Shown here: in pieces, positions 21,501 through 46,167 of the stretch
Layout of the letters: every line of letters starts with the position of its first letter
Numbering within the stretch: the stretch's first letter is position 1
From: Chamaelirium japonicum
Taxonomy: Eukaryota > Streptophyta > Magnoliopsida > Liliales > Melanthiaceae
Assembly (NCBI GenBank): GCA_947650365.1
Contig: OX393551.1
Span: 94,772,697-94,836,696, forward strand
Direction: 5' to 3'
Length of the DNA: 64,000 nt
The notes under the pieces: generated by a model
What the model saw: the letters and a program-made list of their open reading frames with translations, nothing else
The model's database searches: none
Told to the model about the DNA's origin: nothing
Translations under genes and position numbers: made by a program

Positions 21501-24120
21501 CAAAACTCCACTTCTCAATTTTTATACGACCCCTTTAGGGTAGGGCATATTTGACGGCTCTTTCTTTCTCTAACTTCTGTCTTTGTTGCTCTCTCCGTTT
21601 TCTTGTAACTGGTCGACTGGGCTCCATATATTCGTGCTGATAATGTGTTGTGAGATGGGAGAAAGAGAGAGCAGTCAAACATGCCCCACCCTAAAGGGGT
21701 CGTATATTATTTATTGGGTAAACTTACTTAGGGCCTAAGCAATCTATAAAAAACCCTAATCAATGGGAGAAGAGAGAAGAGAACAGGAAGATTTAATTAT
21801 ATTATTAAGAAGTGGAGTTTTGGAATTAAGATTCCTTCTTACTTCACATCTATACCTGTGGCCAATGGACTGGAGCAGGACTTCTTCTCTCTTCTCTATT
21901 CGTTTATCTCTTCATTCTCTTCTCTCTTCTTCTTTCTCTTCTGTCTTTGCTTCTCTCTCTATTTTCTTGTGACTCAGCTGGGCTAGACATAGTCATGCTA
22001 ATAACGTGTTGTGAGACGGGAGAAAGAGAGAGCCGTCAAACTTGCCCCACTATTAAGGGGCAGTATAAATTTTGAGAAGTAGAGTTTTGGAATTTAGATT
22101 CCCTCTTACTTCACACCTATACCCATGGCCAATGGACTGGAACTGGACTTCGAAGTGAGAAAAGAGAAGAAGTCCTGCTCCAGTCCATTAGCCACGGGTA
22201 TAGGTGTGAAGTAAAAAGGAATCTAAATTCCAAAACTCTAAAGAAGAGAGATAAGAAGAGATAAGAGAACGGAAAGATAAATGAAGATACTATTGAGAAG
22301 TGGAGTTTTGGAATTTAGATTCCTTCTTACTTCACACCTATACCCGTAGCGAATGGACTTGAGAAGAACTTCTTCTCTCTTCTCTCTCAATATTTATTTA
22401 ATTAGTTTACTTTATATTATTAATATTAAAAAAATAATTAAATAACTAGATAATTAAATAATTAAATAAATTAATTATTTTACTAAAAACCTAATTATTA
22501 AATTATTTAAATTATTAAATAATTTAAAGAAATATAGAAGAGAGAAGAAGCCCTGCTCCAGTCCATTCTCGACGGGTATAGGTATGAAGTAAGAAGAAAT
22601 ATAAATTCCAAAACTCCACTTCTCAATAGTATCATCTCGTTATTTTGATTATCATAGTAAATTCTCTTCTCTCTTCGTTTTAATTAAATGATTAATTTAA
22701 TTAAAAAATATATAGTAAAATTACTATGATAATCATAATAACTTTAAGATGATACTATTGAGAAGTGGAGTTTTAGAATTTAGATTCCTTCTTACTTCAC
22801 ACCTATACCCGTACGTGGCCATTGGACTCAAGCAGGACTTCCTCTCTCTTTTCTCTTTGTTTATCTCTCCATTCTCTTATATCTTCTCTCTTCTTCTCTC
22901 TCTTCTGTCTTCGTTTCCCTTTCCGTTTTCTTGTGACTGGTTGGATGGGCTCGACATGTTCATGCTGATAACATGTTGTGAGATGGAAGAAAGAGAGCCA
23001 TCAAACGTGCCTACCGTAAAGGGGTCATATATTATTTATAGGGTATGCTTACTTAGGGCCTCAGGAATTTATGGAAAACCCTAATCTATGGGAGGAGAGA
23101 GAAGAGAACGGAGAGATTTAATTATATTATTGAGAAGTGAAGTTTTAGAATTTAGATTCCTTCTTACTTTACACCTATACCCGTGGCCAATGGACTAGAG
23201 CAGGACTTCTTCTCTCTTCTATCATCGTTTATCTATCTGTTCTCTTCTCTCTTCTTCTCTCTCTTCTGTCCTCGTTTCTCTCTCTATTTTTTTGCGACTG
23301 GTCGGCTGGGCTCGACATGTTCATGCTAGTAACGTGTTGTGAGATGAGAGAAGAATAGAGAAAAGAACAGAGAGATAAACGAAGAGAGAAGAGATAAGAA
23401 GTCCTGCTCTTGTCCATTCACCATGGGTATAGATGTAAAGTAAAAAGGAATCTAAATTCCAAAACTCCGCTTCTTAATATTTATACAACCCCTTTAGGGT
23501 GGAGCATATTTGATAGCTCTCTCTTTCTCTCATCTCACAACACATTATCAGCACGTATATGTTGATCCCAGCCGACCAATCACAAGAAAACGGATAAAGA
23601 AACGAAAACAGAACTGAGAGAACAAGAGAGAAGAGAACGGAGAGATAAACAAAGAGAGAAGAGAGAAGAAATCATGCCCGAGTCCATTGGCCATGGGTAC
23701 AGGTAAGAAGTAAGAAGGAATCTAAATTCAAAAACTCTATTTCTAAATAATATAATTAAATCTCTTTGTTCTCTTCTCTTTTCTCCTATGGATTAGGGTT
23801 TCCTATAGATTTCTTAGACCCTAAGTAAGCTTACCCGATAAATAATATACGACTCCTTTAGGGTGGGTCACATTTGACGGCCCTCTATTTCTCCCATCTC
23901 ATAACATATTATTAGCACGAACATGTCGAGACCATATGACCAGTCGCAAGAAAACAGAGGGAGAAATAAAGACAAAAGAGAGAGAAAAAGAGAGAAGAGA
24001 ATGGAGAGATAAACAAAGAGAGAAAAGAGAAGAAGTCCTGCTCAATTCCATTAGCCACGGGTATAGGTGTGAGGTAAGAAAGAATCTAAATTCAAAAACT
24101 CCACTTCTATCTTTGATTCT
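18585..24120. repeat. Large segmental duplication, copy 2
   Basis: Collinear partner of 11,060-17,110. It shares the same unusual junctions and is interrupted by indels. One example is a leader insertion near 18,990-19,080 with a second GACCAGTTGACCAGTCGCAAG block. Plus-oriented PBS copies start near 18,876, 20,286, 20,640, 23,538 and 23,902. Minus-oriented copies end near 19,850, 20,915, 21,180, 21,650, 22,012, 22,980 and 23,343. No coding sequence recognised. Confidence 0.7.
22548..22850. repeat. Foldback palindrome, partner of 15,556-15,860
   Basis: The same arms and centre as the copy at 15,556: CAATAGTATCATCTCGTTAT and GATTATCATAGTAA facing TTACTATGATAATC and GATGATACTATTGAGAAGTG across TTTTAATTAAATGATTAATT. 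The right arm carries a duplicated ACGTG at about 22,810. It is part of the large duplication. Confidence 0.7.
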
Positions 24121-24875
24121 CTCTCTATTTTCTTGTGACTGGTCGGTTGGTCTCGATATGTTCGTGCTGATAACGTATTATAAAATGGGAGAAATAGAGA
24201 GTTACCAAATGTGCCCCACCCAAAAGGAGTCGTATATTATTTATAGGGTAAGCTTACTTAGGGCCTAACCAACCTATGAAAAACCCTAATCTATGGGAGA
24301 AAATAGAAGAGAACGGAGAGATTTAATTATATTATTTAGAAATGGAGGTTTGGAATTTAGATTCCTTTTTACTTCACCCCTATACCCGTGGCCAATGGAC
24401 TGTAGCAGGACTTCTTCTCTCTTCGTTTATCTCTCCGTTCTTTTCTCTCTTCTTCTATCTCTTCTATCTTCGTTTCTCTCTCCGTTTTCTTGCGACTGGT
24501 CGGCTGGGCTCAAATGTTCGTGCTGATAACGTGTTATGAGATGGGAGAAAAAGAGAGCCATCAAAACTCTACTTCTCAATAGTATCATCTCAATGTTATT
24601 ATGATTATCATGGTAATGTTACAATAATTTTTTAATTAAATAAATTATTTATTAAATAATTTAATAATTAAGTTTTTGGTAAAATAATTAATTTATTTAA
24701 TTATTTAATTATCTAGTTATTTAATTAAAATTTATTGTTTTATGTATTTATTATTATTATATTATTTAATAATTAAATTAGGTAACTATTTAATTATTTA
24801 AATTATTAAATAGAGAAATAATGATTTTAAAAAATTAAATAAATTATAAAATATTTAATTATAAAATATTACAAC
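24121..24875. mobile_element. Minus-oriented leaders followed by a plus-oriented AT core
   Basis: Two minus-oriented leader/PBS copies (ending near 24,185 and 24,538). At 24,563 the recurrent GCCATCAAAACTCTACTTCT junction switches to a plus-oriented leader end. An AT core of about 270 bp follows (24,605-24,875) and ends at an LTR start. No genes. Confidence 0.55.
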
Positions 24876-25006
24876 TTTTAATAGATCATTCGATCGGATG
24901 GCTGTCCACCGTCGGATCTCTCCTGTAGATTAGGGTTTTCCATAGATTGCTTAGGCCCTAAGTAATTTTACCCTATAAATAATATACGACCCATTTAGAG
25001 TGGGGC
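24876..25006 (+). mobile_element. LTR truncated at its 3' end
   Basis: Begins TTTTAATAGATCATTCGATC after the ACAAC that precedes other LTRs. Contains GTCCACCGTCGGATCTCTCC, GGCCCTAAGTAA, CCCTATAAATAATATACGAC and GTGGGGCAC. It then jumps to GAACATATCGATCTC inside the leader, so about 45 bp of LTR end and PBS are missing. Confidence 0.7.
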
Positions 25007-25120
25007 ACGAACATATCGATCTCAGTAGGCTTATTCATTGGCCATGGGTATAGGTATAAAGTAAAATAATTAAATTAAAATAACTAATTAATTATTTAAT
25101 AACTAATTAGGGCTGACCAG
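25007..25120 (+). repeat. Short AT spacer shared with the 386-bp unit at 49.4-50.0 kb
   Basis: CCATGGGTATAGGTATAAAG leads into an A/T spacer ending AACTAATTAGGGCTGACCAG. The same spacer, inverted, occurs at 49,388-49,455 and 49,774-49,830. It joins a leader end directly to the LTR start (GACCAGTC|ATTCGATCGG), so it is an amplified deletion derivative. Confidence 0.6.
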
Positions 25121-25205
25121 TCATTCGATCGGATGGCTATCCATCATCGAATCTCTCCCATGGATTAGGGTTTCCCATATATTGCTTAATACCTAAGTAA
25201 GCTTA
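25121..25205 (+). mobile_element. Left half of an LTR split by the CACTA insertion
   Basis: Runs from CATTCGATCGGATGGC to CCTAAGTAAGCTTA and stops. The expected continuation, CCCTATAAATAATATAC, is found at 46,173. Together the halves give 158 bp, which is the 168-bp LTR lacking its first bases. GCTTA is present on both sides (25,201-25,205 and 46,168-46,172). Confidence 0.85.
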
Positions 25206-25238
25206 AGCTACAAAAAAAATAGTTATTACCGACGGACA
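25206..25238 (+). repeat. Left terminal inverted repeat of the CACTA element
   Basis: AGCTACAAAAAAAATAG, then TTATTACCGACGGAC. It aligns to the reverse complement of 46,134-46,165 over CTACAA, AATAG and TTACCGACGGAC, with small indels. It is more degenerate than the right end. Confidence 0.75.
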
Positions 25239-25680
25239 ATATCCGTCGGTAATATTAAAATTCCGTCGGTAATATTTTATAGCGGCGGAAGATATTTCCG
25301 TCGCTGGCTGTCGGGAAAAAAGGTGTCGGGGAAAACATTACGACGGACCAAATATTACCGTCGGTAATAATAATTAATACCGACGGTAATATTAAAGCCG
25401 TCGGTCATATTTAATCAATTAAAAATTAATATAATATATTATTACCGATGAAACTTAATAGTCCGTCGGTAATATATAAGCATTGTACCGACGGTTATGG
25501 TATGTCCCGTCGGTAATACTGTATATATTACCGACGGATATATATGTCCTGTCGGTAATAATATATATATATATATATATATTACCGACGGGTATTATAT
25601 ACCGTCGGCAAATTATTTATAATTTAAAAAAAAATGAAAATATTATTACCGACGGAACAATTAATTTCCGTCGGTAATAA
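25228..25680. repeat. Left subterminal repeats (ACCGACGG/CCGTCGGT pairs)
   Basis: Roughly fifteen copies of ACCGACGG or its reverse complement, mostly in facing pairs separated by 8-25 bp, giving a series of short palindromes. In En/Spm such subterminal motifs bind the element's TnpA-type protein; a matching role here is inference. A (TA)n tract lies at about 25,557-25,583. No gene. Confidence 0.8.
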
Positions 25681-25734
25681 GTATGTTTTTTTTTTAATAA
25701 ATTTTTACCTAAATAATGTTATTTAATTCCTGTG

Positions 25735-25880
25735 ATTTACAACAATACCACAATATATTACCACAATTTATCAAATATTACCACAATTTATAAAATATTA
25801 CCGCAAATTTTAAAATATGACCTAAATTGATAACAAGTTACAGCAAATTATCAAATATTGCCACAGTACCCCACAATTAT
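25735..25880 (+). repeat. 20-bp degenerate tandem repeat
   Basis: Successive units of the form ATTACCACAATTTATCAAAT (for example 25,757, 25,777, 25,797), drifting to ATTACCGCAAATTTTAAAAT and ATTGCCACAGTACC. Five to six units. The rest of 25,681-25,950 is A-rich and holds nothing recognisable. Confidence 0.6.
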
Positions 25881-25951
25881 AGACAAGAACAAAAAATAAC
25901 CATATATTACAAAATAATATTTACACAATCCAAAACTAAGAGATGATACAT

Positions 25952-26076
25952 GCCCTATCTCAACCACCCCCACCCGCCACCAATGCTGGTGCTCTCATCG
26001 ATCCCCTGACGCCGCCCTATCTCAACCACCCCCCACCCGCCACCAATGCTGGTGCTCTCATCGATCCCCTGACGCC
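25952..26076 (-). repeat. 62/63-bp GC-rich tandem duplication
   Basis: Two copies of a block beginning GCCCTATCTCAACCACCCCC and ending CGATCCCCTGACGCC, at 25,952 and 26,014, differing by one C in a homopolymer. Its base composition is quite unlike the surrounding A/T-rich DNA, which suggests former coding sequence. Confidence 0.85.
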
Positions 26077-26085
26077 GCCCTGCTC
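25955..26085 (-). pseudogene. Possible last exon of the second CACTA gene
   Basis: On the minus strand, TTAATTGCAG at 26,095-26,086 is a good plant acceptor. If joined to the donor at 38,048 (CAG|GTACTT, phase 1), the frame stays open for 43 codons to a TAG at 25,957-25,955. It encodes a Gly-rich tail with DESTSIGGGWG repeated twice. The alternative is that the gene ends at the TGA at 38,055-38,053 and this is only untranslated element DNA. Support is limited to phase and composition. Confidence 0.35.
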
Positions 26086-27230
26086 CTGCAATTAACATGT
26101 ATTTGTTAAAAAAATGGTTTATACCAATAACTGAGTCTAAGCGTTAAAAAATGATAAGTTAGCGTGTTTCGGTTTTGAAATAGGTTTGGATTCGATCGGA
26201 TCAGCATCCGATAATTTGAAGTTGGAATTATTCCGTATTTCGGACTTGCGAGCAGGTTCTAATTGGATATTTGACCAATTTACGCTCCGATTCACCGATT
26301 TAGAGTCTAAGTGTTGGAAAATCATAAGTTAGCGTGTTTCAGATATGAAATAGGTTTGGATTCGATCCGATCGTCAACGGATCGGCATCCGATAATTCGA
26401 ACTTGGAATTATTCCATATTTCGGACTTTTGAGCGGGTTCTAATTGGATATTTGACCAATTTACGATCCGATTCACCGATTTAGAGTCTAAGTGTTGGAA
26501 AATCATAAGTTAACGTGTTTCGGATATGAAATAGGTTTGGATTCGATCAGATCGGCAACGGATCAGCATCCGATAATTCAAAGTTGGAATTATTCCGTAT
26601 TTCGGACTTGCGAGCGGGTTCTAATTGGATATTTGACCAATTTACGCTCCGATTCACCGATTTAGAGTCTAAGTGTTGGAAAATCATAAATTAGCGTGTT
26701 TCGGATATGAAATATGTTTGGATTCGATCGGATCGGCAACGGATCGGTATCCGATAATTCGAACTTGGAATTATTCCGTATTTCGGACTTGCGAGCGGGT
26801 TCTAATTGGATATTTGACCAATTTACGCTCCGATTCACCGATTTAGAGTCTAAGTGTTGGAAAATCATAAGTTAGCGTGTTTCGGATATGAAATAGGTTT
26901 GGATTCGATCCGATCGTCAATGGATCGGCATCCGATAATTCGAACTTGGAATTATTCCGTATTTCGGACTTGCGAACGGGTTCTAATTGGATATTTGACC
27001 AATTTACGCTCCGATTCACCGATTTAGAGTCTAAGTGTTGGAAAATCATAAGTTAGCGTGTTTCGGATATGAAATAGGTTTGGATTCGATCCGATCGTCA
27101 TCGGATCGGCATCCGATAATTCGAACTTGGAATTATTCCGTATTTCGGACTTGCGAGCGGGTTCTAATTGGATATTTGACCAATTTACGATCCTATTCAC
27201 CGATTTAGAGTCTAAGTGTTGGAAAATCAT

Positions 27231-30200
27231 AAGTTAACGTGCTTCGGATATGAAATAGGTTTGGATTCGATCGGATCGGCAACGGATCGGCATCCGATAA
27301 TTCGAAGTTGGAATTATTCCGTATTTCGGACTTGCGAGCGGGTTCTAATTGGATATTTGACCAATTTACGCTCCGATTCACCGATTTAGAGTCTAAGTGT
27401 TGGAAAATCATAAGTTAGCATGTTTCGGATATGAAATAGGTTTGGATTCGATCCGATCGTCATCAGATCGGCATCCGATAATTCGAACTTGGAATTATTC
27501 CGTATTTCGGACTTGCGAGCGGGCTCTAATTGGATATTTGACCAATTTACGATTCGATTCACCGATTTAGAGTCTAAGTGTTGGAAAATCATAAGTTAAC
27601 GTGTTTCGGATATGAAATAAGTTTGGATTCGATCGGATCGGCATCCGATAATTCGAACTTGGAATTATTCCGTATTTCGGACTTGCGAGCGAGTTCTAAT
27701 TGGATATTTGACCAATTTACGCTCCGATTCACCGATTTAGAGTCTAAGTGTTGGAAAATCATAAGTTAGCGTGTTTCGGATATGAAATAGGTTTGGATTC
27801 GATCCGATCGTTAATAGATCGGCATCCGATAATTCGAAGTTGGAATTATTCCGTATTTCGGACTTGCGAGCGGGTTCTAATTGGATATTTGACCAATTTA
27901 CGCTCCGATTCACCGATTTAGAGTCTAAATGTTGGAAAATCATAAGTTAGCATGTTTCGGATATGAAATAGGTTTGGATTCGATCCGATCGTCATCAGAT
28001 CGGCATCCGATAATTCAAACTTGGAATTATTCTGTATTTCGGACTTGCGAGCGGGTTCTAATTGGATATTTGACCAATTTACTACGTGTTTCGGATATGA
28101 AATAGGTTTGGATTCGATCGGATCGACTACGGATCGGCATCCGATAATTCGAAGTTGGAATTATTCCGTAATTCAGACTTGCGAGCGGGTTCTAATTGGA
28201 TATTTGACCAATTTACGCTCTGATTCACCGATTTAGAGTCTAAGTGTTGGAAAATCATAAGTTAGCGTGTTTCGGATATGAAATAGGTTTGGATTCGATC
28301 CGATCGTCAACGGATCGGCATCCGATAATTTGAATTTGGAATTATTCCGTATTTCGGACTTACGAGCGGGTTCTAATTGGATATTTGACCAATTTACACT
28401 CCGATTCACCGATTTAGAGTCTAAGTGTTGGAAAATCATAAGTTAGCGTGTTTCGGATATGAAATAGGTTTGGATTCGATCGGATCGGCATCAGATCAGT
28501 ATCCGATAATTCGAACTTGGAATTATTCCGTATTTCGGACTTGCGAGCGGGTTCTAATTGGATATTTGACCAATTTACGCTCCGATTCATCGATTTAGAG
28601 TCTAAGCGTTGAAAAATCATAAGTTAGCGTGTTTCGGATATGAAATAGGTTTGGATTCGATCCGATCGGCAACGAATCGGCATCCAATAATTCGAAGTTG
28701 GAATTATTCCGTATTTCGGACTTGCGAGCGCGTTCTAATTGGATATTTGACCAATTTATGCTCCGATTCACCGATTTAGAGTCTAAGTGTTGGAAAATCA
28801 TAAGTTAGCGTGTTTCGGATATGAAATAGGTTTGGATTCGATCCGATCGTCATCGGATCGGCATCCGATAATTCGAACTTGGAATTATTCCGTATTTCGG
28901 ACTTGCGAGCGGGTTCTAATTGGATATTTGACCAATTTACGCTCCTATTCACCGATTTAGAGTCTAAGTGTTGGAAAATCATAAGTTAGCGTGTTTCGGA
29001 TATGAAATAGGTTTGGATTCGATCCGATCGTCATCAGATCGGCATCCGATAATTTGAACTTGGAATTATTCTATATTTCGGACTTGCGAACGCGTTCTAA
29101 TTGGATATTTGACCAATTTACGCTCCGATTCACCGATTTAGAGTCTAAGTGTTGGAAAATCATTAGTTAGCGTGTTTCAGATATGAAATAGGTTTGGATT
29201 CGATCGGATCGTCATCGGATCGGCATCCGATAATTCGAACTTTGAATTATTCCGTATATCGGACTTGTGAGCGGGTTCTAATTGGATATTTGACAAATTT
29301 ACGATCCGATTCACCGATTTAGAGTCTAAGTGTTGGAAAATCATAAGTTAGCGTGTTTCGGATATGAAATAGGTTTGGATTCGATCGGATCGTCATCGGA
29401 TCGGCATTCGATAATTCGAACTTGGAATTATTCCGTATTTCGGACTTGCGAGCGGGTTCTAATTGGATATTTGACCAATTTACGCTCCGATTCACCGATT
29501 TAGAGTCTAAGTGTTGGAAAATCATAAGTTAGCGTGTTTCGGATATGAAATAGGTTTGGATTCGATCCGATCGTCATCGGATCGGCATCCGATAATTCGA
29601 AGTTGGAATTATTCCGTATTTCGGACTTGCGAGCAGGTTCTAATTAGATATTTGACCAATTTACGATCCGATTCACCGATTTAGAGTCTAAGTATTGGAA
29701 AATCATAAGTTAGCGTGTTTCGGATATGAAATAGGTTTGGATTCGATCGGATCGGCATCCGATAATTCGAACTTGGAATTATTCCGTATTTCGGACTTGC
29801 GCGTGGATTCAAATTGGATATTTGACCAATTTACGCTCTGATTCACCGATTTAGAGTCTAAGTGTTGGAAAATCATAAGTTAGCGTGTTTCGGATATGAA
29901 ATAGGTTTGGAGTCGATCCGATCGTCATCGGATCGGCATCCGATAATTCGAACTTGGAATTATTCCGTATTTTGGACTTGCGAGCGGGTTCTAATTGGAT
30001 ATTTGACCAATTTACGCTCTGATTCACCGATTTAGAGGCTAAGTGTTGGAAAATCATAAGTTAGCGTGTTTCGGATATGAAATAGGTTTGGATTCGATCC
30101 GATCGTCATCGGATCGGCATCCAATAATTTGAAGTTGGAATCATTCCATATTTCGGACTTGCGAGCACGTTCTAATTGGATATTAGACCAATTTACGCTC

Positions 30201-31818
30201 CGATTCACCGATTTAGAGTCTAAGTGTTGGAAAATCATAAGTTAGCGTGTTTCGGATATGAAATAGGTTTTGATTCGATCGAATCGGCAACGGATCGGCA
30301 TCCGATAGTTCGAAGTTGGAATTATTCTGTATTTCGGACTTGCGAGCGCGTTCTAATTGGATATTTGACCAATTTACGCTCCGATTCACCGATTTAGAGT
30401 CTAAGTGTTGGAAAATCATAAGTTAGCGTGTTTCGGATATGAAATAGGTTCATCCGATAATTCGAACTTGGAATTATTCCGTATTTCGGACTTGCGAGCG
30501 GGTTCTAATTGGATATTTGACCAATTTACGCTCCGATTCACCGATTTAGAGTCTAAGTGTTGAAAAATCATAAGTTAGCGTGTTTCGGATATGAAATAGC
30601 TTTGGATTCGATCCGATCGTCATCGGATCGGCATCCGATAATTCGAACTTGGAATTATTCCATATTTCGGACTTACGAGCGGGTTCTAGTTGGATATTTG
30701 ACCAATTAACGCTCCGATTCACCGATTTAGAGTCTAAGTGTTGGAAAATCATAAGTTAGCGTGTTTCGGATATGAAATAGGTTTGGATTCGATCCGATCG
30801 TCATCGGATCGGCATCCGATAATTCGAACTTAGAATTATTCCATAGTACGGACTTGCGAGCGGGTTCTAATTGGATATTTGGCCAATTTACGCTCCGATT
30901 CACCGATTTAGAGTCTAAGTATTGGAAAATCATAAGTTAGCGTGTTTCGGATATGAAATAGGTTTGGATTCGATCGGATCGGTATCGGATCGGCATCCGA
31001 AAATTCGAACTTGGAATTATTCCGTATTTCGGACTTGCGAGCGGGTTCAAATTGGATATTTGACCAATTTACGCTCCGATTCACCAACTTAGAGTCTAAG
31101 TGTTGAAAAATCATAAGTTAGCATGTTTCGGATATGAAATAGGTTTGGATTCGATCGGATCGGCAACGGATCGGAATCCGATAATTCGAAGTTGGAATTA
31201 TTCCGTATTTCGGACTTGCGAGCGCGCTCTAATTGGATATTTGACCTATTTACGCTCCGATTGACCGATTTAGAGTCTAAGTGTTGGAAAATCATAAGCT
31301 AGCATGTTTCGGATATGAAATAGTTTTGGATTCGATCGGATCGGCAACAGATCGGCTTCGAAGTTGGAATTATTCCGTATTTCGGACTTGCGAGCGTGTT
31401 CTAATTGGATATTTGACCAATTTACGCTCCGATTCACCGATTTAGAGTCTAAGTGTTGGAAAATCATAAGTTAGCGTGTTTCGTATATGAAATAGGTTTG
31501 GATTCGATCGGATCGGCATCCAATAATTCGAACTTGGAATTATTCCATATTTCGAACTTGCGAGCGGGTTCTAATTGGATATTTGACCAATTTACGCTCT
31601 GATTCACCGATTTCGAGTCTAAGTGTTGGAAAATCATAAGTTAGCGTGTTTCGGATTTGAAATAGGTTTGGATTCGATCGGATCGGCATCGGATCGGCAT
31701 CCGATAATTCGAACTTGGAATTATTCCGTATTTCGGACTTGCGAGCGCGTTCTAATTGGATATTTGACCAATTTATGCTCCGATTCACCGATTTAGAGTC
31801 TAAGTGTTGGAAAATCAT
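27231..31818 (+). repeat. Higher-order repeat, copy A (about 4.6 kb)
   Basis: About 25 monomers whose private variants recur in the same order in copy B. Examples: GTTAACGTGCTTCGG (27,233), GCGCGTGGATTCAAATTGG (29,799), the truncated AATAGGTTCATCCGATAATT (30,443), GGATCGGCTTCGAAG-type loss (31,355) and TCGTATATGA (31,481). A 47-bp deletion at about 28,083 is unique to this copy. Confidence 0.85.
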
Positions 31819-34800
31819 AAGTTAACGTGCTTCGGAAATGAAATAGGTTTGGATTCGATCGGATCGGCAACGGATCCGCATCCGATAATTCGAAGTTGGA
31901 ATTATTCCGTATTTCGGACTTGCGAGCGGGTTCTAATTGGATATTTGACCAATTTACGCTCCGATTCACCGATTTAGAGTCTAAGTGTTGGAAAAATAAG
32001 TTAGCATGTTTCGGATATGAAATAGGTTTGGATTCGATCCGATCGTCATCGGATCGGCATCCGATAATTCGAACTTGGAATTATTCCGTATTTCGGACTT
32101 GCGAGCGGGCTCTAATTGGATATTTGACCAATTTATGATTCGATTCACCGATTTAGAGTCTAAGTGTTGGAAAATCATAAGTTAACGTGTTTCGGATATG
32201 AAATAAGTTTGGATTCGATAGGATCGGTATCCGATAATTCGAACTTGGAATTATTCCGTATTTCGGACTTGCGAGCGAGTTCTAATTGGATATTTGACCA
32301 ATTTACGCTCCGATTCACCGATTTAGAGTCTAAGTGTTGGAAAATCATAAGTTAGCGTGTTTCGGATATGAAATAGGTTTGGATTCGATCCGATCGTTAA
32401 CAGATCGGCATCCGATAATTCAAAGTTGGAATTATTCTGTATTTCGGACTTGCGAGCGGGTTCTAATTGGATATTTGACCAATTTACGCTCCGATTCACC
32501 GATTTAGAGTCTAAATGTTGGAAAATCATAAGTTAGCATGTTTCGGATATGAAATAGGTTTGGATTCGATCCGATCGTCATCGGATCGGCATCCGATAAT
32601 TCGAACTTAGAATTATTCCGTATTTCGGACTTGCGAGCGGGTTCTAATTGGATTTTTGACCAATTTACGATCCGATTCACCGATTTAGAGTCTAAGTGTT
32701 GGAAAATCATAAGTTAACGTGTTTCGGATATGAAATAGGTTTGGATTCGATCGGATCGGCAACGGATTGGCATCCGATAATTCGAAGTTGGAATTATTCC
32801 GTAATTCAGACTTGCGAGCGTGTTCTAATTGGATATTTGACCAATTTACGCTCTGATTCACCGATTTAGAGTCTAAGTGTTGGAAAATAATAAGTTAGCG
32901 TGTTTCGGATATAAAATAGGTTTGGATTCGATCCGATCGTCAACGGATCGGTATCCGATAATTCGAATTTGGAATTATTCCGTATTTCGGACTTGCGAGC
33001 GGGTTCTAATTGGATATTTGACCAATTTACGCTCCGATTCACCGATTTAGAGTCTAAGTGTTGGAAAATCATAAGTTAGCGTGTTTCGGATATGAAATAG
33101 GTTTGGATTCGATCGGATCGGCATCCGATAATTCGAACTTGGAATTATTCCGTATTTCGGACTTGCGAGCGGGTTCTAATTGGATATTTGACCAATTTAC
33201 GCTCCGATTCACCGATTTAGAGTCTAAGCGTTGAAAAATCATAAGTTAGCGTGTTTCGGATATGAAATAGGTTTGGATTCGATCCGATCGGCAACGGATC
33301 GGCATCCAATAATTCGAAGTTAGAATTATTCTGTATTTCGGACTTGCGAGCGTGTTCTAATTGGATATTTGACCAATTTACGCTCCGATTCACCGATTTA
33401 GAGTCTAATTGTTGGAAAATCATAAGTTAGCGTGTTTCGGATATGAAATTGGTTTGGATTCGATCCGATCATCATCGGATCGGCATCCAATAATTCGAAC
33501 TTGGAATTATTCTGTATTTTGGACTTGCGAGCGGGTTCTAATTGGATATTTGACCAATTTACGCTCCGATTCACCGATTTAGAGTCTAAGTGTTGGAAAA
33601 TCATAAGTTAGCGTGTTTCGGATATGAAATAGGTTTGGATTCGATCCGATCGTTATCGGATCGGCATCCGATAATTTGAACTTGGAATTATTCTGTATTT
33701 CGGACTTGCGAGCACGTTCTAATTTGATATTTGACCAATTTACGCTCCGATTCACCGATTTAGAGTCTAAGTGTTGGAAAATCATTAGTTTGCGTGTTTC
33801 GGATATGAAATAGGTTTGGATTCGATCGGATCGTTATCGGATCGGCATCTGATAATTCGAACTTGGAATTATTCGGTATATTGGACTTGTGAGCGGGTTC
33901 TAATTGGATATTTGACAAATTTACGATCCGATTCACCGATTTAGAGTCTAAGTGTTGGAAAATCATAAGTTAGCGTGTTTCGGATATGAAATTGGTTTGG
34001 ATTCGATCGGATCGTCATCGGATCGGCATTCGATAATTCGAACTTGGAATTATTCCGTATTTCGGACTTGCGAGCGGGTTCTAATTGGATATTTGACCAA
34101 TTTACGCTCCGTTTCACCGATTTAGAGTCTAAGTGTTGGAAAATCATAAGTTAGCGTGTTTCGGATATGAAATAGGTTTGGATTCGATCCGATCGTCATT
34201 GGATCGGCATCCGATAATTCGAAGTTGGAATTATTCCGTATTTCGGACTTGCGAGCAGGTTCTAATTGGATATTTGACCAATTTACGATCCGATTCACCG
34301 ATTTAGAGTCTAAGTATTGGAAAATCATAAGTTAGCGTGTTTTGGATATGAAATAGGTTTGGATTCGATCGGATCAGCATCCGATAATTCGAACTTGGAA
34401 TTATTCCGTATTTCGGACTTGCGCGTGGATTCAAATTGGATATTTGACCAATTTACGCTCTGATTCACCGATTTAGAGTCTAAGTGTTGGAAAATCATAA
34501 GTTAGCGTGTTTCGGATATGAAATAGGTTTGGAGCCGATCCGATCGTCATCGGATCGGCATCCGATAATTCGAACTTGGAATTATTCCGTATTTCGGACT
34601 TGCGAGCGGGTTCTAATTGGATATTTGACCAATTTACGCTCTGATTCACCGATTTAGAGGCTAAGTGTTGGAAAATCATAAGTTAGCGTGTTTCAGATAT
34701 TAAATAGGTTTGGATTCGATCCGATCGTCATCGGATCGGCATCCGATAATTTGAAGTTGGAATTATTCCGTATTTCGGACTTGCGAGCACGTTCTAATTG

Positions 34801-36440
34801 GATATTTGACCAATTTATGCTCCGATTCACCGATTTAGAGTCTAAGTGTTGGAAAATCATAAGTTAGCGTGTTTCGGATATGAAATAGGTTTTGATTCGA
34901 TAGGATCGGCAACGGATCGGCATCCGATAATTCGAAGTTGGAATTATTCTATATTTCGGACTTGCGAGCGCGTTCTAATTGGATATTTGACCAATTTACG
35001 CTCCGATTCACCGATTTAGAGTCTAAGTGTTGGAAAATCATAAGTTAGCATGTTTCGGATATGAAATAGGTTCATCCGATAATTCGAACTTGGAATTATT
35101 CCGTATTTCGGACTTGTGAGTGGGTTCTAATTGGATATTTGACCAATTTACGCTCTGATTCACCGATTTAGAGTCTAAGTGTTGGAAAATCAAAAGTTAG
35201 CGTGTTTCGGATATGAAATAGCTTTGGATTCGATCCGATCGTCATCGGATCGGCATCCGATAATTCGAACTTGGAATTATTCCATATTTTGGACTTACGA
35301 GCGGGTTCTAATTGGATATTTGACCAATTAACGCTCCGATTCACCGATTTAGAGTCTAAGTGTTGGAAAATCATAAGTTAGCGTGTTTCGGATATGAAAT
35401 AGGTTTGGATTCGATCCGATCATCATCGGATCGGCATCCGATAATTCGAACTTAGAATTATTCCATATTACGGACTTGCGAGCGGGTTCTAATTGGATAT
35501 TTTGCCAATTTACGCTCCGATTCACCGATTTAGAGTCTAAGTATTGGAAAATCATAAGTTAGCGTGTTTCGGATATGAAATAGGTTTGGATTCGATCGGA
35601 TCGGCATCGGATCGGCATTCGATATTTCGAACTTGGAATTATTCCGTATTTCGGACTTGCGAGCGGGTTCAAATTGGATATTTGACCAATTTACGCTCCG
35701 ATTCACCAATTTAGAGTCTAAGTGTTGGAAAATCATAAGTTAGCATGTTTCGGATATGAAATAGGTTTGGATTCGATCGGATCGGCAACGGATCGACATC
35801 CGATAATTCGAAGTTGGAATTATTCCTTATTTCGGACTTGCGAGCGCGCTCTAATTGGATATTTGACCTATTTACGCTCCGATTGACCGATTTAGAGTCT
35901 AAGTGTTGGAAAATCATAAGTTAGCATGTTTCGGATATGAAATAGTTTTGGATTCGATCGGATCGGCATCGGATCGGCTTCGAAGTTGGAATTATTCCGT
36001 ATTTCGGACTTGCGAGCGTGTTCTAATTGGATATTTGACCAATTTACGCTTCGATTCACCGATTTAGAGTCTAAGTGTTGGAAAATCGTAAGTTAGCGTG
36101 TTTCGTATATGAAATAGGTTTGGATTCGATCGGATCGGCATCCAATAATTCGAACTTGGAATTATTCCATATTTCAGACTTGTGAGCGGGTTCTAATTGG
36201 ATATTTGACCAATTTACGCTCTGATTCACCGATTTCGAGTCTAAGTGTTGGAAAATCATAAGTTAGCGTGTTTCGGATATGAAATAGGTTTGGATTCGAT
36301 CGGATCAGCATCGGATCGGCATCCGATAATTCAAACTTGGAATTATTCCGTATTTCGGACTTGCGAGCGCGTTCTAATTGGATATTTGACCAATTTACGC
36401 TCCGATTCACCGATTTAGAGTCTAAGTGTTGGAAAATCAT
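31819..36440 (+). repeat. Higher-order repeat, copy B (about 4.6 kb)
   Basis: Adjacent tandem partner of copy A. The private variants appear at a constant offset of 4,622 bp in the right half (GCGTGGATTC at 34,423, truncated monomer at 35,065, TCGTATATGA at 36,103). The offset is about 4,588 bp at the left edge, the difference being due to the 47-bp deletion in copy A and small indels. Monomers left of 27,231 and right of 36,440 do not clearly continue the pattern. Confidence 0.85.
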
Positions 36441-37618
36441 ACGTTAGCGTGTTTCGGATATAAAATAGGTTTGGATTCGATCGGATCGTCATCGGATCGG
36501 CATCCGATAATTCGAACTTGGAATTATTCCGTATTTCAGACTTGCGAGCGGGTTCTAATTGGATATTTGACCAATTTATGATCCGATTCACCGATTTAGA
36601 GTCTAAGTGTTGGAAAATCATAAGTTAGCGTGTTTCGGATATGAAATAGGTTTGGATTCGATCGGATCGGCATCGGATCGGCATCCGATAATTAGAACTT
36701 GGAATTATTCCTTATTTCGGACTTGCGAGCGGGTTCTAATTGGATATTTGACCAATTTACGCTCTGATTCACCGATTTAGAGTCTAAGTGTTGGAAAATC
36801 ATAAGTTATCGTGTTTCAGATATGAAATAGGTTTGGATTCGATCCGATCGTCATCGGATCGGCATCCGATAATTCGAAGTTGGAATTATTCCGTATTTCA
36901 GACTTGCGAGCGAGTTCTAATTGGATATTTGACCAATTTACGCTCCGATTCACCGATTTAGAGTCTAAGTGTTGGAAAATCATAAGTTAGCGTGTTTTGG
37001 ATATGAAATAGGTTTGGATTCAATCGGATCGTCATCGGATTAGCATCCGATAATTCGAAGTTGGAATTATTCCGTATTTCGGACTTGCGAGCGGGTTCTA
37101 ATTGGATATTTGACCAATTTACGATCCGATTCACCGATTTAGAGTCTAAGTATTGGAAAATCATAAGTTAGCGTGTTTCGGATATGAAATAGGTTTGGAT
37201 TCGATCCGATCGTCATCGGATCGGCATCCGATAATTCGAACTTGGAGTTATTCCGTATTTCGGACTTGCGAGCGGGTTCTAATTGGATATTTGACCAATT
37301 TACGCTCCGATTCACCGATTTAGAGTCTAAGTGTTGGAAAATCATAAGTTTGCGTGTTTCGGATATGAAATAGGTTTGGATTTGATCCGATCGTCATCGG
37401 ATCGGCATCCGATAATTCAAAGTTGGAATTATTCCGTATTTCAGACTTGCGAGCGGGTTCTAATTGGATATTTGACCTATTTACGCTCCGATTCACCGAT
37501 TTAGAGTCTAAGTGTTGGAAAATCATAAGTTAGCGTGTTTCAGATATGAAATAGGTTTGGATTCAATCCGATCGTCATCGGATCGGCATCCGATAATTCC
37601 AACTTGGAATTATTCCGT

Positions 37619-37920
37619 ATGTCTTGAATCATTTATGCACATAAATAAATTATTATCCCTAAAAAGTACCAATTGCATGAGTGAATTTAAAATAATTTGC
37701 ACTTACAAAGATTCAGTCAAAGTTTACATGTATGCCAATGTAACTGCAGAGATAGAAATCGAACTCCGTTGGGTGGCATATTGTTGTGTCCACTACAAAT
37801 GTCACATGAGGGAGATATCCCTCTTCCAACGAAGGCACACACCTAGCATGATTAAAAAACAAAATTCGATCATTTAAAATAAAAACAGAGGCTACGTCAT
37901 TACCATGAGAGAGAGAGAGA
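37619..37920. other. Non-satellite interruption at the array's right edge
   Basis: The last monomer stops inside CCGTAT at 37,618. About 300 bp of unrelated, moderately A/T-rich DNA follow and end in a (GA)n tract (37,902-37,920). A monomer fragment then resumes. Neither end shows an obvious TIR, and no gene is recognised. An open frame crossing 37,512-37,877 begins inside the satellite and has no recognisable domain. Confidence 0.6.
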
Positions 37921-37976
37921 GACCATTTACGATCCGATTTACCGATTTAGAGTCTAAGTGTTGGAAAATCATAAGT
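37921..37976 (+). repeat. Detached partial 181-bp monomer
   Basis: GACCATTTACGATCCGATTT ... AGTCTAAGTGTTGGAAAATC ATAAGT matches the 3' third of a monomer. It ends exactly where monomers would continue TTAGCGTG. Beyond it (37,977-38,045) the DNA is ordinary element sequence leading into the second gene. Confidence 0.85.
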
Positions 37977-38052: not shown

Positions 38053-39557
38053 TCATGAGGATGAGCCACCGCTAGACCGGCTTATGAATTCATAAAATTT
38101 ATGCTCCAGTTCCCTACGAGCTTCTCTTTCCTCATCGAGGGCCTTCTTCTCCGCCTCAACCCTCTGCTCGAGGGCCTGCCTCTGCTCTCGCTCCGCCTAA
38201 ATCCTCTGCTCGAGGGCCTACCTCTGCTCTCACTCCGCGTCTAGCGTAGACTGCAGCTGAGTGATAGCACCGGTCTGGGTGTCCCGTGCCCTCGAGCGCA
38301 TACCCTCTCGTCCAAAGTAGAAGGAGGGCATGACTCCAAGGCCCGTACAGAGGACACGGCCGTGCGTGGCAGGTCTCAGCACAGTATCCATCGCTGAGTC
38401 GACAGATACTGAGCTGGAGAAGGAGCCGGCCTCGCCCGACGGGGTCACCAGAAGTCGCATCCTCTCCTATATAAAAACAACCAATGATATTCAATGATAT
38501 TTTATGGCATATGTATAAGAATATATTAACAGTAATTTAATTACTTACCACTTGCGAGGCAACCCTATCATCCAGAAATGCCCCATCGATACGCCGCCTC
38601 CTAGAGGCCTCAAAAAGGTCAATCCTATTAGGCTCGTGGCCCAAGGACTGTGTCTGTTGGACATATAAAATAAATAGATGAGTTAATATAACATGTATAG
38701 AGCTTTAAATAATAACAATGTTTGTATCATTTACCAGCTGCTGGGCAAGCTGGGGCATGGAGGTCCTCCCCCTCACTGGAGCAGGTATCGTCGAGGCACT
38801 TCTATTCTGCTTGCCTATAGCAGATTTCGCCTGTGTTAATTGATTAAATTTTGAAACATCAATACAAATTTATAGTATAACATTAAAACAAGTACGAATC
38901 AACAAAATTATAATTATACTTGAAAGTGAGGGGTGGCCCAGTGAGCGACCAAAAACTGTAGAACGTGCAGCGGTGGCACGTCTCTCGTCCTGGCCACAGC
39001 CTGTACCTCCTTAGCTGGCTGGCCGACCAGGTAACCGTAGAGCTGGTAGAGCTCGTGACGGTAATCCTTGTACTGCTCACCCATCATCTTCCACAAGTCC
39101 TCCCGATGGGTGTCGGTTTCCATGTTCTCCCATTTAAATTTCTCCTGTAAAATCAATTTAGAAACAAGTCATTTTATCAAATCAAATTATAAAGAAGTAC
39201 GATATTATTCTAAAATGCTTTAATGAAACTAACGTACCAAAAACTGCTGATACATCCTCTCCTTATAGGATGCATCAATGTTCTTCCACTCCCTTAACCC
39301 CACAATCGGGGCATTCCTCTCTTCCCGTACTATAATGCCGACCCACGTGGCGGCGTCAGAAGCGTGGGCGTAGACGCTGTAGCCGAGTGCTAAGCACTGC
39401 TCGAAGCTCCGGAGGCTGCGACCATATCAGGAGCTGGTGTGGAGAGAGGAGCAGCACTACCAGATCCGGACGGCTCAGCCTCGGACCCTGGGGTGGCAGC
39501 CGGAGCGCTCCGAGCTACCCCACCCCTGCCTCTACGAACATATGACCATGATGCCAT
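38053..39557 (-). pseudogene. Second CACTA gene, Transposase_24 (Ptta/En/Spm) type, broken
   Basis: Five exons on the minus strand: 39,557-39,238, 39,144-38,920, 38,830-38,735, 38,653-38,549 and 38,466-38,053. All internal junctions are GT/AG and phase 0. Exon 1 starts with a Ser/Gly/Ala-rich N-terminus (MASWSYVRRGRGGVARS). Its frame breaks near 39,392 (TAG), and the sequence continues in another frame as YAHASDAATWVGIIVREER and REWKNIDASYKERMYQQFL. Exon 2 has KFKWENMETD and EQYKDYRHELYQLYGYL. Exons 3-4 have KQNRSASTIP and EPNRIDLFEASRRRRIDGAFL. Exon 5 has HGRVLCTGLGVMPSFYFGRE, then a Glu/Arg/Gln coiled coil. That coil is cut by TGA 38,232, TAG 38,220 and TAG 38,199, and a final TGA lies at 38,055. 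The intact length would have been about 385 residues. In En/Spm elements the second protein is a DNA-binding partner of the transposase; the same role here is inference. Confidence 0.8.
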
Positions 39558-39559
39558 CT

Positions 39560-39850
39560 GAAACAGTTTAATTTACATATGAAACAGTAAGATTTACATA
39601 TGAAACAATATGAAACAGTTTGATTTACATATGAAACAATAAGATTTACATATGAAACAATATGAAACACTTTGATTTACATATAAAACAGTATGATTTA
39701 TGAAATAATATGAAACAATTTGATTTACATATGAAACGGTATGATTTACATATAAAACAGTATAAATTAATATGATATACATATGAAACAATATGATTTA
39801 TATATGAAACAATTTGATTTAAATATGAAACAATTTGATTTACATACAGT
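39560..39850 (-). repeat. 21-22 bp minisatellite between the two CACTA genes
   Basis: About 12-13 units of the type ATGAAACAATTTGATTTACAT, with variants such as ATGAAACAGTAAGATTTACA and some half units. It fills almost the whole interval between the TNP2 stop (39,851) and the start codon of the second gene (39,557). Open frames through it are translations of the repeat. Confidence 0.85.
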
Positions 39851-42800
39851 CTAGTCATTTTCTGTCTCATCTCTGTCACTCTCATCGCTTCCCTCTTCTA
39901 TGATTTCATCTGCATTCGCTGTCCAGTTTATATTGTCGACATCTTTATTTTCGTCGTGCACTGCATCGACAATGATTATCTCATCATTCTGGTATGCATC
40001 CAAATCATCATCGACGACCCCTGCATCCTTATCTCCCATGTCATAAAAATCTCTGGGTGGTGACCTGACTACAATTTGCCAACCTGGAGAGGTATTATCC
40101 GGTGCATAAAATATCTGTTGCGCTTGAGAGGCAAGAATGAATGGATCTTCATATTGGGTATTCAATCTCTTGCCAGTGTTGATGCTGATAAAACCGTATT
40201 TATCGACATTATAACCAGTCCCACGATTATTAACATCATACGAATCGCATTTGAATAATACAATCTGATTTTGGCCAAGGAATTTAATCTCGAGAATCTC
40301 GTTGAGGACGCCGTAGAAGTCGATATTTTCTAATTCTTCTTGCTCACCGTTGACGACAACCCCACTATTTTGGGTTCTTCGTGATTTTTCACTATCTTTT
40401 GTCCGAAATCTATAATCGTTCACGATATAACCATCGTACGATATTGCGTCTTGCAAAGGACTACAAGATAAGCGCCAGAGATCCTCATTCATCAACGGAT
40501 CGTGGTTGTCGTGCAGCTCTTGTGCCTATAATAACCACATGACATTCATGATATGAACACATAATTATTGTTCGGTAATGGATGTCAATGAAATTCAGTA
40601 ATGATGTGAATACTTACGTATTTCTCGAAAAACGATGGGAATTCACGATCATGAATTTGGGGAGCATTTCGAGTACCCCGATTATTAATGATGGTTTTAT
40701 GCTTCCTGTTTTACAAGTTATGAATTAGATTATAATTAGCACATATACTTAATGATGGACTGAAAGAATGAGTAAATGATCGTAAAATGCTTACTCAATG
40801 AATGGCCGCACTTCATCACATTGGTGCAACACGTACATATGTGCTTGTTGAATCTCATCTACAGACAATCGATGGGTTTTGCCTCCTCCTACAGGTCCAC
40901 CCATTTCGGCAAATATAGACAGACCCCCATCGAAGTCTATTGGACCACCGTCATAGTTCCGCTCTAGTTGATTGAATCGCGTGTCTATACCATGTAGGTA
41001 ATTTGAGCAGAATGTTAGACATTCTTCTGCTAGGTATCCTTCAGCAATTGATCCCTCCGGATGACTTTTATTACGAACATATGATTTCAATGTTCACAAG
41101 TACCTAATTTGAGAAAAATATATTTGGATGAATATATCAAGAACGATTAAATACATTGTGCGAATGAGACGAGACGATTACCTCTCGATAAAATACATCC
41201 AGCGGTAATGAACTGGGCCGCCGAGTTTGGCCTCATTTGCCAAGTGAACGGTCAAATGCACCATGACATCAAAGAAGGAAGGTGGAAATATCATCTCTAG
41301 CTTGCACAATGTGAGTGCAATATCCCTCTCCATCTGTTCAAGTTGGTCCACTCTAAGTACCTTCGAGCACAACTATCTGAAAAAAGTGCTGAGCTCAATT
41401 AACAGACCGGACACCTGTTCCGTTAAATTCCCACGTATAACAAGAGATAACAATCGCTGCATAAGAACATGACAATCGTGGCTCTTTAATCCAGACAACT
41501 TCCGACCGTTCTCTTGCACGCATCGTGCGATATTCGAAGAATAACCGTCTGGCGTTTTCACAGACCGTAGGAACGCACATAAGGCTGCCTTTTGCTGTGA
41601 GCTCATGGTGTAGCATGCAACTGGCAACACATACTTATCCCCAATCTCTTGGGGATGAAGTGGTTTTCGGATACCCAACTCCTTAAGATCGAGACGAGAT
41701 TTAAGATTATCCTTCGTCTTATCGTCGAGATTCAGCAGTGTTCCTATAATGTTGTCACACACATTTTTCTCGATATGCATGACATCCAAGTTATGCCGCA
41801 AGAGTAGGCTGCTCCAGTACGGTAGTTTAAAGAAAATACTCTTCTTCTTCCAGTTATGCTCACGCGTAGAATCTTCATGCGTTCTCTTCTTTTTACCTTT
41901 CCCAAGTGCCACGGTATCAAGCTGATCCAATTCGCACAAGACTTCTACCCCCGAAAGCTGCTCCGGGGCCTTTGCAAGTTCCTTCTTGCCGTTGAAAGCT
42001 CTTTTGTTCTGCCTCCACTTATGGCCGTCAATAAGGAATCTTCGATGGCCCATATAACAGAACTTGCCTCCGTTCTTCAACCGTAATGAATCTGTCTCCT
42101 TATTGCATGTAGGGCACGCCAATTTTCCTTTAGTACTCCACCCGGATAAGTTAGCATATGCAGGAAAATCGTTGATGGTCCATAGAAGTGCCGCATGTAT
42201 CCGAAAATTCTAGTGCAACGAGGCATCATACGTATCGGCTCCAACTTCCCATAACTCGTTCAACTCCTCAATCAACGGCTGCAAGTAAACGTCAATATCA
42301 TTACCAGGCGACCTGGGTCCGAGAATGAGCAAGGAGAGCATTGTGTATGGCTTTTTTAAGCACATCCAGGGAGGCAAATTATATGGAACTAGGACAACTG
42401 GCCAAATACTGTACGACACACTCATATTCCCAAAGGGATTGAAGCCATCGCTAGCAAGCCCTAACCTGACATTGTGAACTTCACATGCGAATTCAGGATA
42501 GGTATGATCAAAATCTTTCCACGTCAGAGAATCGGCCGGATGTCTCATAATCCCGTCATCTGTACGTTCTCGTGCATGCCACCTCATGTGCTCAGTAGTC
42601 TTCGATGACATAAACAACCTCTGAAGCTTGTCCCTAAGCGGGAAGTATAGGAGAACCTTTTCAGATATATTTTTCTTCCTTCGACTGGTACTAGACTCGG
42701 CATCCGTCTCTTTATATCTCGTTGCTCCGCATATGTGGCATGACCGTGCATGTTCGTACTCTTTCCGGTACAATATACAATCGTTCACGCATGCATCAAT

Positions 42801-43451
42801 TTTCTCATAACCCAGACCGAGATCTTTAATTGTCTTCTTCACCTCGTAGAATGATTTCGGTACTATCTTACCCATAGGAAAAGCTTCTTTCAGCAACTCT
42901 ACCAACATATTAAATGACTTATTACTCCAACAATTGAGGCACTTCAAATGAAGAAGCTTTACAGTGAAAGAGAGTTTTGAAAATTTCTCACACCCCGGGT
43001 ATAGAGGTTGTTCGGCATCTTTAAGCAATCTGTAGAACTTGTCCGCTTCGATATTGGGCTGATCACCTGATGGTGCTTCCGTGCCTATTCCACCTTGCAA
43101 ATCATGTATCATACCCTGCATGTCATCGTCATCGTCTGTATTAATATTATCATCAGCGATCACTGTGTTTGAAGTTTCACCATGAGCTGCCATGGGGACT
43201 ATATCTAGCTCCTCACCGTGCGAGAACTAACGGGTATAGCTAATGTCAATGCCACGCATTACCAGATCAACCTCATATTCCTCTCGAACCTTCCTAATCA
43301 CCCTTCCGCAGTCTATACAGGGACACACAATTTTTCCATCAAGCGGTGCAAGACGCTCAAATGCAAAATCCAGAAATTTCCTGACTCCTTCTCTGTACTC
43401 TTGGCTCATACGATTCGAATTACGCATCCAACTCTTATCGATCGAAGACAT
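39851..43451 (-). pseudogene. TNP2-like CACTA transposase with four in-frame stops
   Basis: Exons 43,451-41,182, 41,103-40,795, 40,705-40,618 and 40,525-39,851 join at GT/AG sites and total 3,342 nt, one frame of 1,113 residues. Domains in order: transposase-associated N-terminus (DKSWM, EYREGVRKFLDFAF, CPCIDCG); Transposase_21/TNP2 core (HICGATRYK, MRWHARER, LGLASDGFNPFG with Asp at about 335, PGNDIDVYLQPLIEEL with Asp at 385/387, WTINDFPAYANLSGWSTKGK, CPTCNK, LDVMHIEKNVCDN); DUF4218 (FPPSFFDVMVHLTVHL, SYVRNKSHPEGSIAEGYLAE); DUF4216 (DFYGVLNEILEIKF, FKCDSYD); and an acidic tail. Stops lie at 43,229-43,227 (TAG, Trp expected), 42,212-42,210 (TAG), 41,375-41,373 (TAG) and 41,096-41,094 (TGA). 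No frameshift is visible. The enzyme would cut and move the element; this copy cannot make it whole. Confidence 0.92.
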
Positions 43452-44338: not shown

Positions 44339-44346
44339 CTAATACC
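44339..44346 (+). repeat. Left 8-bp target-site duplication of the hAT element
   Basis: CTAATACC, identical to 45,228-45,235. An 8-bp duplication is the hallmark of hAT insertion. Confidence 0.9.
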
Positions 44347-45227
44347 CATGGACGGATCTAGGTAAGGCCCAGGGGGGGCAGCTGCCCCCCTGGAATTTGG
44401 GTTTCATTATAGATAGTCCTGTGTGGGATTTTCTTTCCCTCTTTTATGGCCTTGTGTGCTCTCTCCTTGCCCCCCTTGAGACACTAGAGCACCATCCGAG
44501 AGGTTGCAGTAGCAGTCGGGTGTGATTAACCTATTGGATCTTCACCCGCACATTTGAATGAACCGTTTGACAAGTATGGAATGAACATTATTTGGCTCCA
44601 ATAGCTGCTGAGCAACGAGCTCCAACAGATGATGTGGGGTCCATATTATTATTTTAAACTCAAAGCTTTTTTATAATGATTTATCTTATGATAGTGGAGT
44701 AAGGTCCAATCACGAGATCTTGGATCAAGGAGAAGCGCCACCCATATTGATCTCTCCGACGGACAGAGCAGACAAACCTAATGGGAAAAAAAAAACCCCT
44801 TACCCAGCTCATAATGTTGCATAAATTTGCTAATTTGCCAAGGTCAGTAAATAGTAATTGTAAATATGAAATTAGTCTATAAAGAAGGAGCACAATTATA
44901 AAATAAATTTATATTTTATTGAATAAATTGGTAGGGGTCCATGCCAAACCCTCCTCCACTGAAGATTGATTTCTCAAAAGAAGAAAAAAAATACAGCACC
45001 ATTATAACAATATTTTTAAAAATATTATTGTATAAGATAAAGAAAAAACCAAATCATTTATTCTCGAGTCCTTACAGCAGCCAACATGAGCACTTTAGAA
45101 CACATTTTGTCATTTATATCACAGATAAGTATAAAAAAATATTAAAAATATTAGTTGATTATCACTTGAGAATTCATCTAATTTTACACTTTGCCCCCCC
45201 TATGAAAAATTTCTGGCTCCGCCACTG
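44347..45227. mobile_element. Non-autonomous hAT element, 881 bp
   Basis: The left end is CATGGACGGATCTAGG. The right end, reverse-complemented, is CAGTGGCGGAGCCAGA. Both lead into G-runs (AGGGGGGGCAGCTG; the right inner end is TAGGGGGGGCAAAG). Termini of the CAGTGGCGGAGCCAG...GGGGGGGC form are familiar in plant hAT elements. Perfect 8-bp CTAATACC duplications flank it. The inside has no transposase domain that I recognise and no long frame. It sits in the CACTA element between the TNP2 gene and the 5' terminus, so it inserted after that element was assembled. Confidence 0.85.
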
Positions 45228-45235
45228 CTAATACC
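45228..45235 (+). repeat. Right 8-bp target-site duplication of the hAT element
   Basis: CTAATACC, an exact match to 44,339-44,346. Confidence 0.9.
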
Positions 45236-46150: not shown

Positions 46151-46167
46151 CTATTTCTTGTAGTCGC
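46134..46167 (-). repeat. Right terminal inverted repeat of the CACTA element
   Basis: The reverse complement reads GCGACTACAAGAAATAGG, then TTCTTTACCGACGGAC. It matches the usual CACTACAAGAAA start apart from the first bases, and is better preserved than the left end. Confidence 0.8.

Follow-up and report, generated by a model that had tools for sequence, protein, structure and literature searches.

The stretch analysed here, referred to throughout as the window, comprises 64,000 nucleotides of Chamaelirium japonicum DNA (C3 positions 94,772,697-94,836,696 of the 1.52-Gb assembly) and contains a 181-bp satellite array enclosed within a CACTA transposable element (Table 1). Autocorrelation over positions 26,111-37,620 peaks at a period of 181 bp, with 80% of positions identical (0.80), a periodicity that far exceeds chance. 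Monomers were counted over the window with a 33-bp anchor sequence, allowing up to 5 substitutions; of the 63 anchors found, 62 lie within the array and one in a relict at 37,944. The spacing between anchors is exactly 181 bp in 48 of 62 cases, the remainder being 152, 170, 172, 315, 360 and 446 bp. Mean pairwise identity among the 49 full 181-bp units is 94.2% and reaches 96.5% between units 26 apart, and a fingerprint of short units recurs with a 4,622-bp offset; the array thus contains an internal multi-unit duplication. The array makes up 55% of the element and lies 3' of the transposase gene. It is not coding, because 181 is not divisible by three and the tripled consensus monomer has stops in all six frames. 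Apart from the relict at 37,921-37,976, the monomer matches nothing else in the window element; an origin in the coding sequence of the element is ruled out, as there is no match to the coding part. The label "centromere-like" for this satellite is based only on the length of its monomer.

Table 1. Features at the array-bearing locus, with positions counted from the first nucleotide of the window.
Feature	Position	Strand	Evidence or remarks
CACTA (En/Spm-type) element	25,206-46,167	-	20,962 bp; termini, subterminal repeats, Transposase_21, element-free site relatives
Orientation of the CACTA element	5' end 46,167; 3' end 25,206	-	Coding strand minus
Left copy of duplicated target	25,201-25,205		GCTTA
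Left (3') terminus	25,206-25,680		Starts AGCTACAAAA...; subterminal TACCGACGG/CCGTCGGTA repeats to ~25,680; direct reading
Non-coding spacer, 3' terminus to array	25,681-26,110		Also in other copies
181-bp tandem array	26,111-37,618	+	62 anchors; internal duplication at offset 4,622 bp
Short variable stretch adjoining array	37,619-37,659		
Conserved spacer, array side to genes	37,660-37,920		96-97% identity in C169 and C10
Relict partial monomer	37,921-37,976	+	94.7% identity to monomer over 57 bp; also in C169 and C10 copies
Probable second CACTA gene (TnpA-like)	38,053-39,600	-	Inferred, from position only
Frame with DUF4216	39,851-40,525	-	E 7.7e-21
Frame with DUF4218	40,791-41,093	-	E 3.8e-19
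Transposase_21 (tnp2/TnpD) coding region	41,373-43,226	-	E 3.5e-57 and 9.5e-36, two halves
Right (5') subterminal repeats and terminus	45,504-46,167		Ends ...TTCTTGTAGTC; direct reading
Right copy of duplicated target	46,168-46,172		GCTTA

Direct reading of the element shows the short repeats TACCGACGG and CCGTCGGTA in both orientations at both ends, and a right end of ...TTCTTGTAGTCGC at 46,167. The outermost left bases are changed, with AGCTACAA in place of CACTACAA. A previous interpretation of this DNA made from its letters (the sequence-only reading) had assigned two transposase genes to the element. The first is borne out by the Transposase_21 matches, its frame in the window being interrupted by one in-frame stop (42,210-42,212). 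For the second, neither of the two candidate frames tested at 38.05-39.6 kb gave a Pfam match, and a TnpA-like gene there is probable from position.

Element-free relatives of the insertion site

Three places related to the insertion site, two on C37 and one on C2, were read. All three lack the element, have both window flanks joined and carry a single GCTTA, so that the site can be rebuilt as the sequence-only reading had proposed. Filled and empty places were also compared by the spacing between two flank markers, at window 9,900 and 46,168, which is predicted to be 15.3 kb without the element; this comparison sets aside seven of the 40 rows for the right flank (84% identity) and ten of the 40 for the left marker (84-86%). 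Among the 15 filled places, with 98-100% right-flank identity, the left marker was found in 11, at a spacing of 31.3-36.6 kb in nine and 58 kb in two. Among the 18 paralogs with 91-94% identity it was found in 16, at 15.1-16.7 kb in 14, 11.2 kb in one and 26.0 kb in another; the place with the 26.0-kb spacing, on C2, is one of the three relatives confirmed as element-free by sequence. Places on C15 were counted as neither empty nor filled, the empty-site stretch attempted there being AT-rich DNA. The insertion-site motif has 47 matches in the window at up to 4 edits.

Copies multiplied within a larger duplicated unit

Genome searches scored the best 40 candidates each, their first-look counts (1390, 2156, 2270 and 1629) being crude. 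The left-junction query was covered essentially whole by all 40 scored matches. Copies with the altered start and left flank of the window element were placed in class A, to which all six places fetched at 30 kb belong; copies at unrelated sites form class B. The left end, array and gene part follow the same order in each of these six places, which, with the element-free relatives, supports the earlier proposal that the array is bounded by parts of one CACTA element. Identity to the window is 97-98.6% for the 904-bp left part in all six and mostly 97-98.7% for the gene parts, with one piece at 95.2%. The insertion point is common to the window copy and all six places, and was identical wherever a class A junction was read. 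The flanks are colinear with the window at 97-99% identity, reaching leftwards to window 11.8-13.9 kb in four copies, 18.5 kb on C1 and 21.2 kb on C7, at which point a further, inverted copy of the element lies, and rightwards to 46.3 kb on C1 and 47.4 kb on C2, the two in which the fetched stretch passes the end of the element. Measured from array start to the start of the right part, the arrays at these six places are 4.4, 6.6, 8.9, 11.7, 11.7 and 11.8 kb long. The shared insertion and colinear flanks indicate that class A derives from one insertion copied with its surroundings, the array being altered in length in place. Array length thus changes without transposition, copies of the same insertion spanning 4.4-11.8 kb. 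In the two nearest copies the monomers follow the window order on one diagonal, at 97.9% identity against 94% overall.

The flank and element of the window occur together in 15 places, the window included, on C1, C2, C3, C7, C10 and C59. Of the 15 right flanks in class A, 11 are accompanied by a marker from window 61 kb, which follows 14.7-14.8 kb further on in ten of them and 21.8 kb further on at C59. Together with the 9.9-kb marker, this shows that in several places the duplicated unit extends over window 9.9-61 kb at the least, and the unit holding the window copy measures some 50 kb or more. Because the flanks are shared, it is ruled out that the window copy transposed independently of its closest relatives. 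The idea that array and element form one 21-kb unit therefore holds in that they are one element, but this element has recently been multiplied within a bigger duplicated unit and not separately.

For nine of the 15 filled places an inverted flank paralog, 91-92% identical, lies 54-158 kb away among the matches listed, and all nine of these paralogs are element-free by marker spacing. The insertion therefore probably postdates the inverted duplication. The pairs of filled place and inverted paralog are at 79.83/79.97, 81.02/81.16 and 82.74/82.59 Mb on C7, 97.70/97.59 Mb on C3, 117.46/117.32 Mb on C1, 58.51/58.65 and 60.36/60.31 Mb on C10, 1.07/1.22 Mb on C59 and 109.00/109.12 Mb on C2. The 61-kb marker occurs ten times on C15 (1.73-3.24 Mb), spaced 131-260 kb apart, and on C3 in pairs 142-148 kb apart (94.69/94.83 and 96.20/96.34 Mb), a pattern suggestive of a giant tandem or macrosatellite unit. 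At C7 80.984-80.993 Mb (L020) a second, inverted element adjoins a class A copy; it has its own array and a more diverged left end (85-91%).

Dispersed copies at unrelated sites

Twenty left ends were fetched through the left-junction search, of which five are class A and 14 class B, one stretch having no terminus. The class B set of 24 consists of these 14, eight termini selected through the array and two elements read at both ends; in the 14 the array is evidenced only by the 90 bp of array within the query. Comparison of 29 left-end flanks gave 24 distinct sites, the other five having the flank of the window. When the 24 class B flanks were compared all against all, no two had a common insertion site; local repeats account for two short inverted matches (58 and 65 bp, at 78-83% identity). 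Twenty-one of the 24 dispersed left ends begin with CACTA.

The two elements read at both ends are on C169 (~15.0 kb; L053), with ends CACTGC/GTAGTG, target-site duplication (TSD) AGA/AGA and 23 array anchors, and on C10 (~12.8 kb; L054), with ends CACTAC/GTAGTG, TSD GTC/GTC and nine array anchors, the relict being excluded from both counts. Canonical 3-bp TSDs were thus present in both dispersed copies tested. Elements joined to the array therefore occupy many different insertion sites. CACTA-type ends, 3-bp TSDs and internal arrays were all present in the two for which both ends were examined. This upholds the earlier suggestion that the array could be moved by a DNA transposon. The sequence-only reading had also called for a search for other CACTA copies with arrays of different length, and such copies were found, both at the shared class A site and on C169 and C10.

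Variable DNA next to the array

Between the array and the conserved spacer lie ~40 bp in the window (37,619-37,659) and ~1 kb in each of the C169 and C10 elements. The two ~1-kb stretches resemble neither each other nor the window, which rules out one longer spacer common to the dispersed copies; the conserved spacer and relict monomer beyond are common to all three. Among the 40 matches scored in the right-junction search, the whole query was matched in 16 and the match starts at 37,660 in 24, a division to be expected if the DNA at this spot varies among copies. The variable stretch is perhaps DNA taken up in gap repair.

Association of array and element across the genome

The monomer search listed at least 35 distinct array places, of which 29 are tied to the CACTA family of the window. 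Junction matches are present within 20 kb of 18 of the 35, and 12 of the other 17 were fetched. A CACTA side was found at the array edge in ten of these 12 (a complete terminus in eight, a partial one in two); the remaining two are still array at 4 kb, one of them with a transposase match ~6 kb away on the expected side. No CACTA-free array was shown among the 35 listed places, which comprise the 29 tied, one that is all array to 4 kb and five that were not fetched. The suggestion that the element might seed independent satellite loci thus found no example among them. When dispersed places were instead selected through the transposase, the array was at the predicted position in six of eight, hand-picked from 40 matches.

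Monomers of other elements are on average 94-96% identical to those of the window, and 88% in L062. Identity within arrays is 94-96% in most, 98.3% in C10 (8 units) and 87% in L062. Values within arrays are mostly equal to those between elements or at most ~1.5 points higher, the C10 value being 2.5 higher. This similarity indicates that for the most part the arrays draw on a single old pool of units and were not made anew in each copy.

Alternative explanations and the origin of the array

We consider it very probable that this CACTA family is a multi-copy one with recent mobility and that its members usually carry the 181-bp array within them, 3' of the transposase gene. The CACTA transposase would move the whole element, array included, and this cut-and-paste would account for class B; segmental duplication would have spread the version in the window, accounting for class A; and unequal exchange or slippage could lengthen or shorten the array at any one site. 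The unrelated DNA that differs between copies beside the array is what might be expected if gaps were repaired there. Several observations weigh against this explanation. The window copy has altered outermost bases (AGCTAC/GTAGTC) and a target duplication of 5 bp (GCTTA), not the canonical 3 bp, and three of the 24 dispersed left ends begin without CACTA. Of the two transposase-selected places outside the six, L078 has the left end of the element at the predicted spot, with a short array or none, and L074 has unrelated DNA there. The array-selected place L062 is more diverged, at a mean of 88% to the window monomers. Only 29 of the 35 array places are tied to the family, and of these ties 18 are junction matches within 20 kb and one is the transposase match ~6 kb away, so that array and element were not always read through; with only the best 40 candidates scored, rare free arrays could escape. 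The linkage of array and element is also known from the assembly alone and, as tandem arrays are common points of misassembly, two CACTA halves from different copies or a satellite contig wrongly placed between them might be suspected. This is negligibly probable given the three element-free relatives, the same order in all six places fetched at 30 kb, the marker distances, and two dispersed elements with matching TSDs; chance, misassembly and unrelated CACTA halves are ruled out on these grounds. It is highly improbable, too, that CACTA and array are immobile and that all copies spread merely as passengers of larger duplicated blocks. Passenger spread does describe the subset to which the window belongs, with its common insertion point and colinear flanks, and the in-frame stop in the window transposase would fit it, but the 24 distinct insertion-site flanks and two canonical 3-bp duplications speak against it as the explanation of all copies.

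How the mobile CACTA family came by its array is a separate matter. Most likely the array grew within the element and was not taken over from a satellite block already present, a view to which we lean because no free array was seen. The converse, that the satellite already existed independently and that a piece of it was captured, then spread, by one CACTA element, is a credible minority possibility. In its favour, the monomer matches nothing else in the element except the relict, and the presence in two copies of ~1 kb of unrelated sequence at the array edge suggests that foreign DNA is taken up there, which favours capture somewhat; the authors of the quinoa study discussed below also argue for capture (PMC8978399). 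The absence of a free array and the 29 of 35 array places tied to CACTA count against it, weakly, since they concern the best 40 candidates only. A more far-reaching version of growth within the element holds that this satellite, throughout the genome, is found solely as cargo of CACTA elements, having originated in the element, been maintained at differing lengths in most members and been scattered by transposition, and that the multiplying unit of the window is a very large interchromosomal repeat of at least about 50 kb, and possibly one of >150 kb with inverted arms. We regard this as speculative and unlikely to hold in full.

Comparison with known systems

An array-bearing CACTA element is less unusual than the sequence-only reading had claimed. 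PMC8978399 describes a CACTA-like element (Jozin) of Chenopodium quinoa, 16,523 bp long with almost complete ends, which carries near its 3' end a satellite array of 171 bp x 32.5 (5,550 bp); the satellite also occurs in elements on three other scaffolds and is read there as captured. As in that account, the present family has an array of centromere-length monomers inside a CACTA element, 3' of the coding region and in several copies. It differs from what is given there in the size of the array, which here is up to 11.8 kb and 55% of the window element against 5,550 bp. Unlike the quinoa case, the array is present here in six of eight family members picked through the transposase, and one filled site has been further multiplied within a large duplicated unit. 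The quinoa monomer as printed in PMC8978399 has no similarity to the 181-bp monomer. The architecture is thus already known from quinoa, this case being larger and apparently more pervasive.

Satellite arrays are tied to CACTA elements also in PMC7320549, on CficCl-61-40, a satellite generated from tnp2 of Jozin, alongside which the Arabidopsis Atenspm case is cited; whereas the monomer there is transposase-derived, the 181-bp monomer is without a match in the coding part. Among Class II elements, satellite-like repeats are also dispersed by Helentrons and Helitrons with central tandem repeats, such as CgHINE of oyster, as covered in a review (PMC9659126). These are rolling-circle elements and make no target duplications, unlike the present terminal inverted repeat element with its TSDs.

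The family described here provides a well-supported case of a DNA transposon dispersing long satellite arrays, with filled and empty site relatives, TSDs and same-site length variants in one genome. Two processes of satellite evolution that are usually confused, movement of a whole array and its growth or shrinkage in place, can be separated here.

Other features of the window

The first 8000 nucleotides of the window (1-8000) are extremely AT-rich, with a G+C content of 8% in the first 2 kb and 17-20% in the next 6 kb, and contain many short degenerate A/T repeats. The flanks at 8000-25,200 and 46,173-64,000 are a mosaic of non-coding repeats in both orientations, with a mutual similarity of about 76-87%. 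Within the 5' region of the element lies a nested insertion of 881 bp (44,347-45,227), which we presume from its appearance to be hAT-like. By eye it has a CAGTGGCGGAGCC end and an 8-bp duplication, CTAATACC, whose two copies are at 44,339-44,346 and 45,228-45,235.

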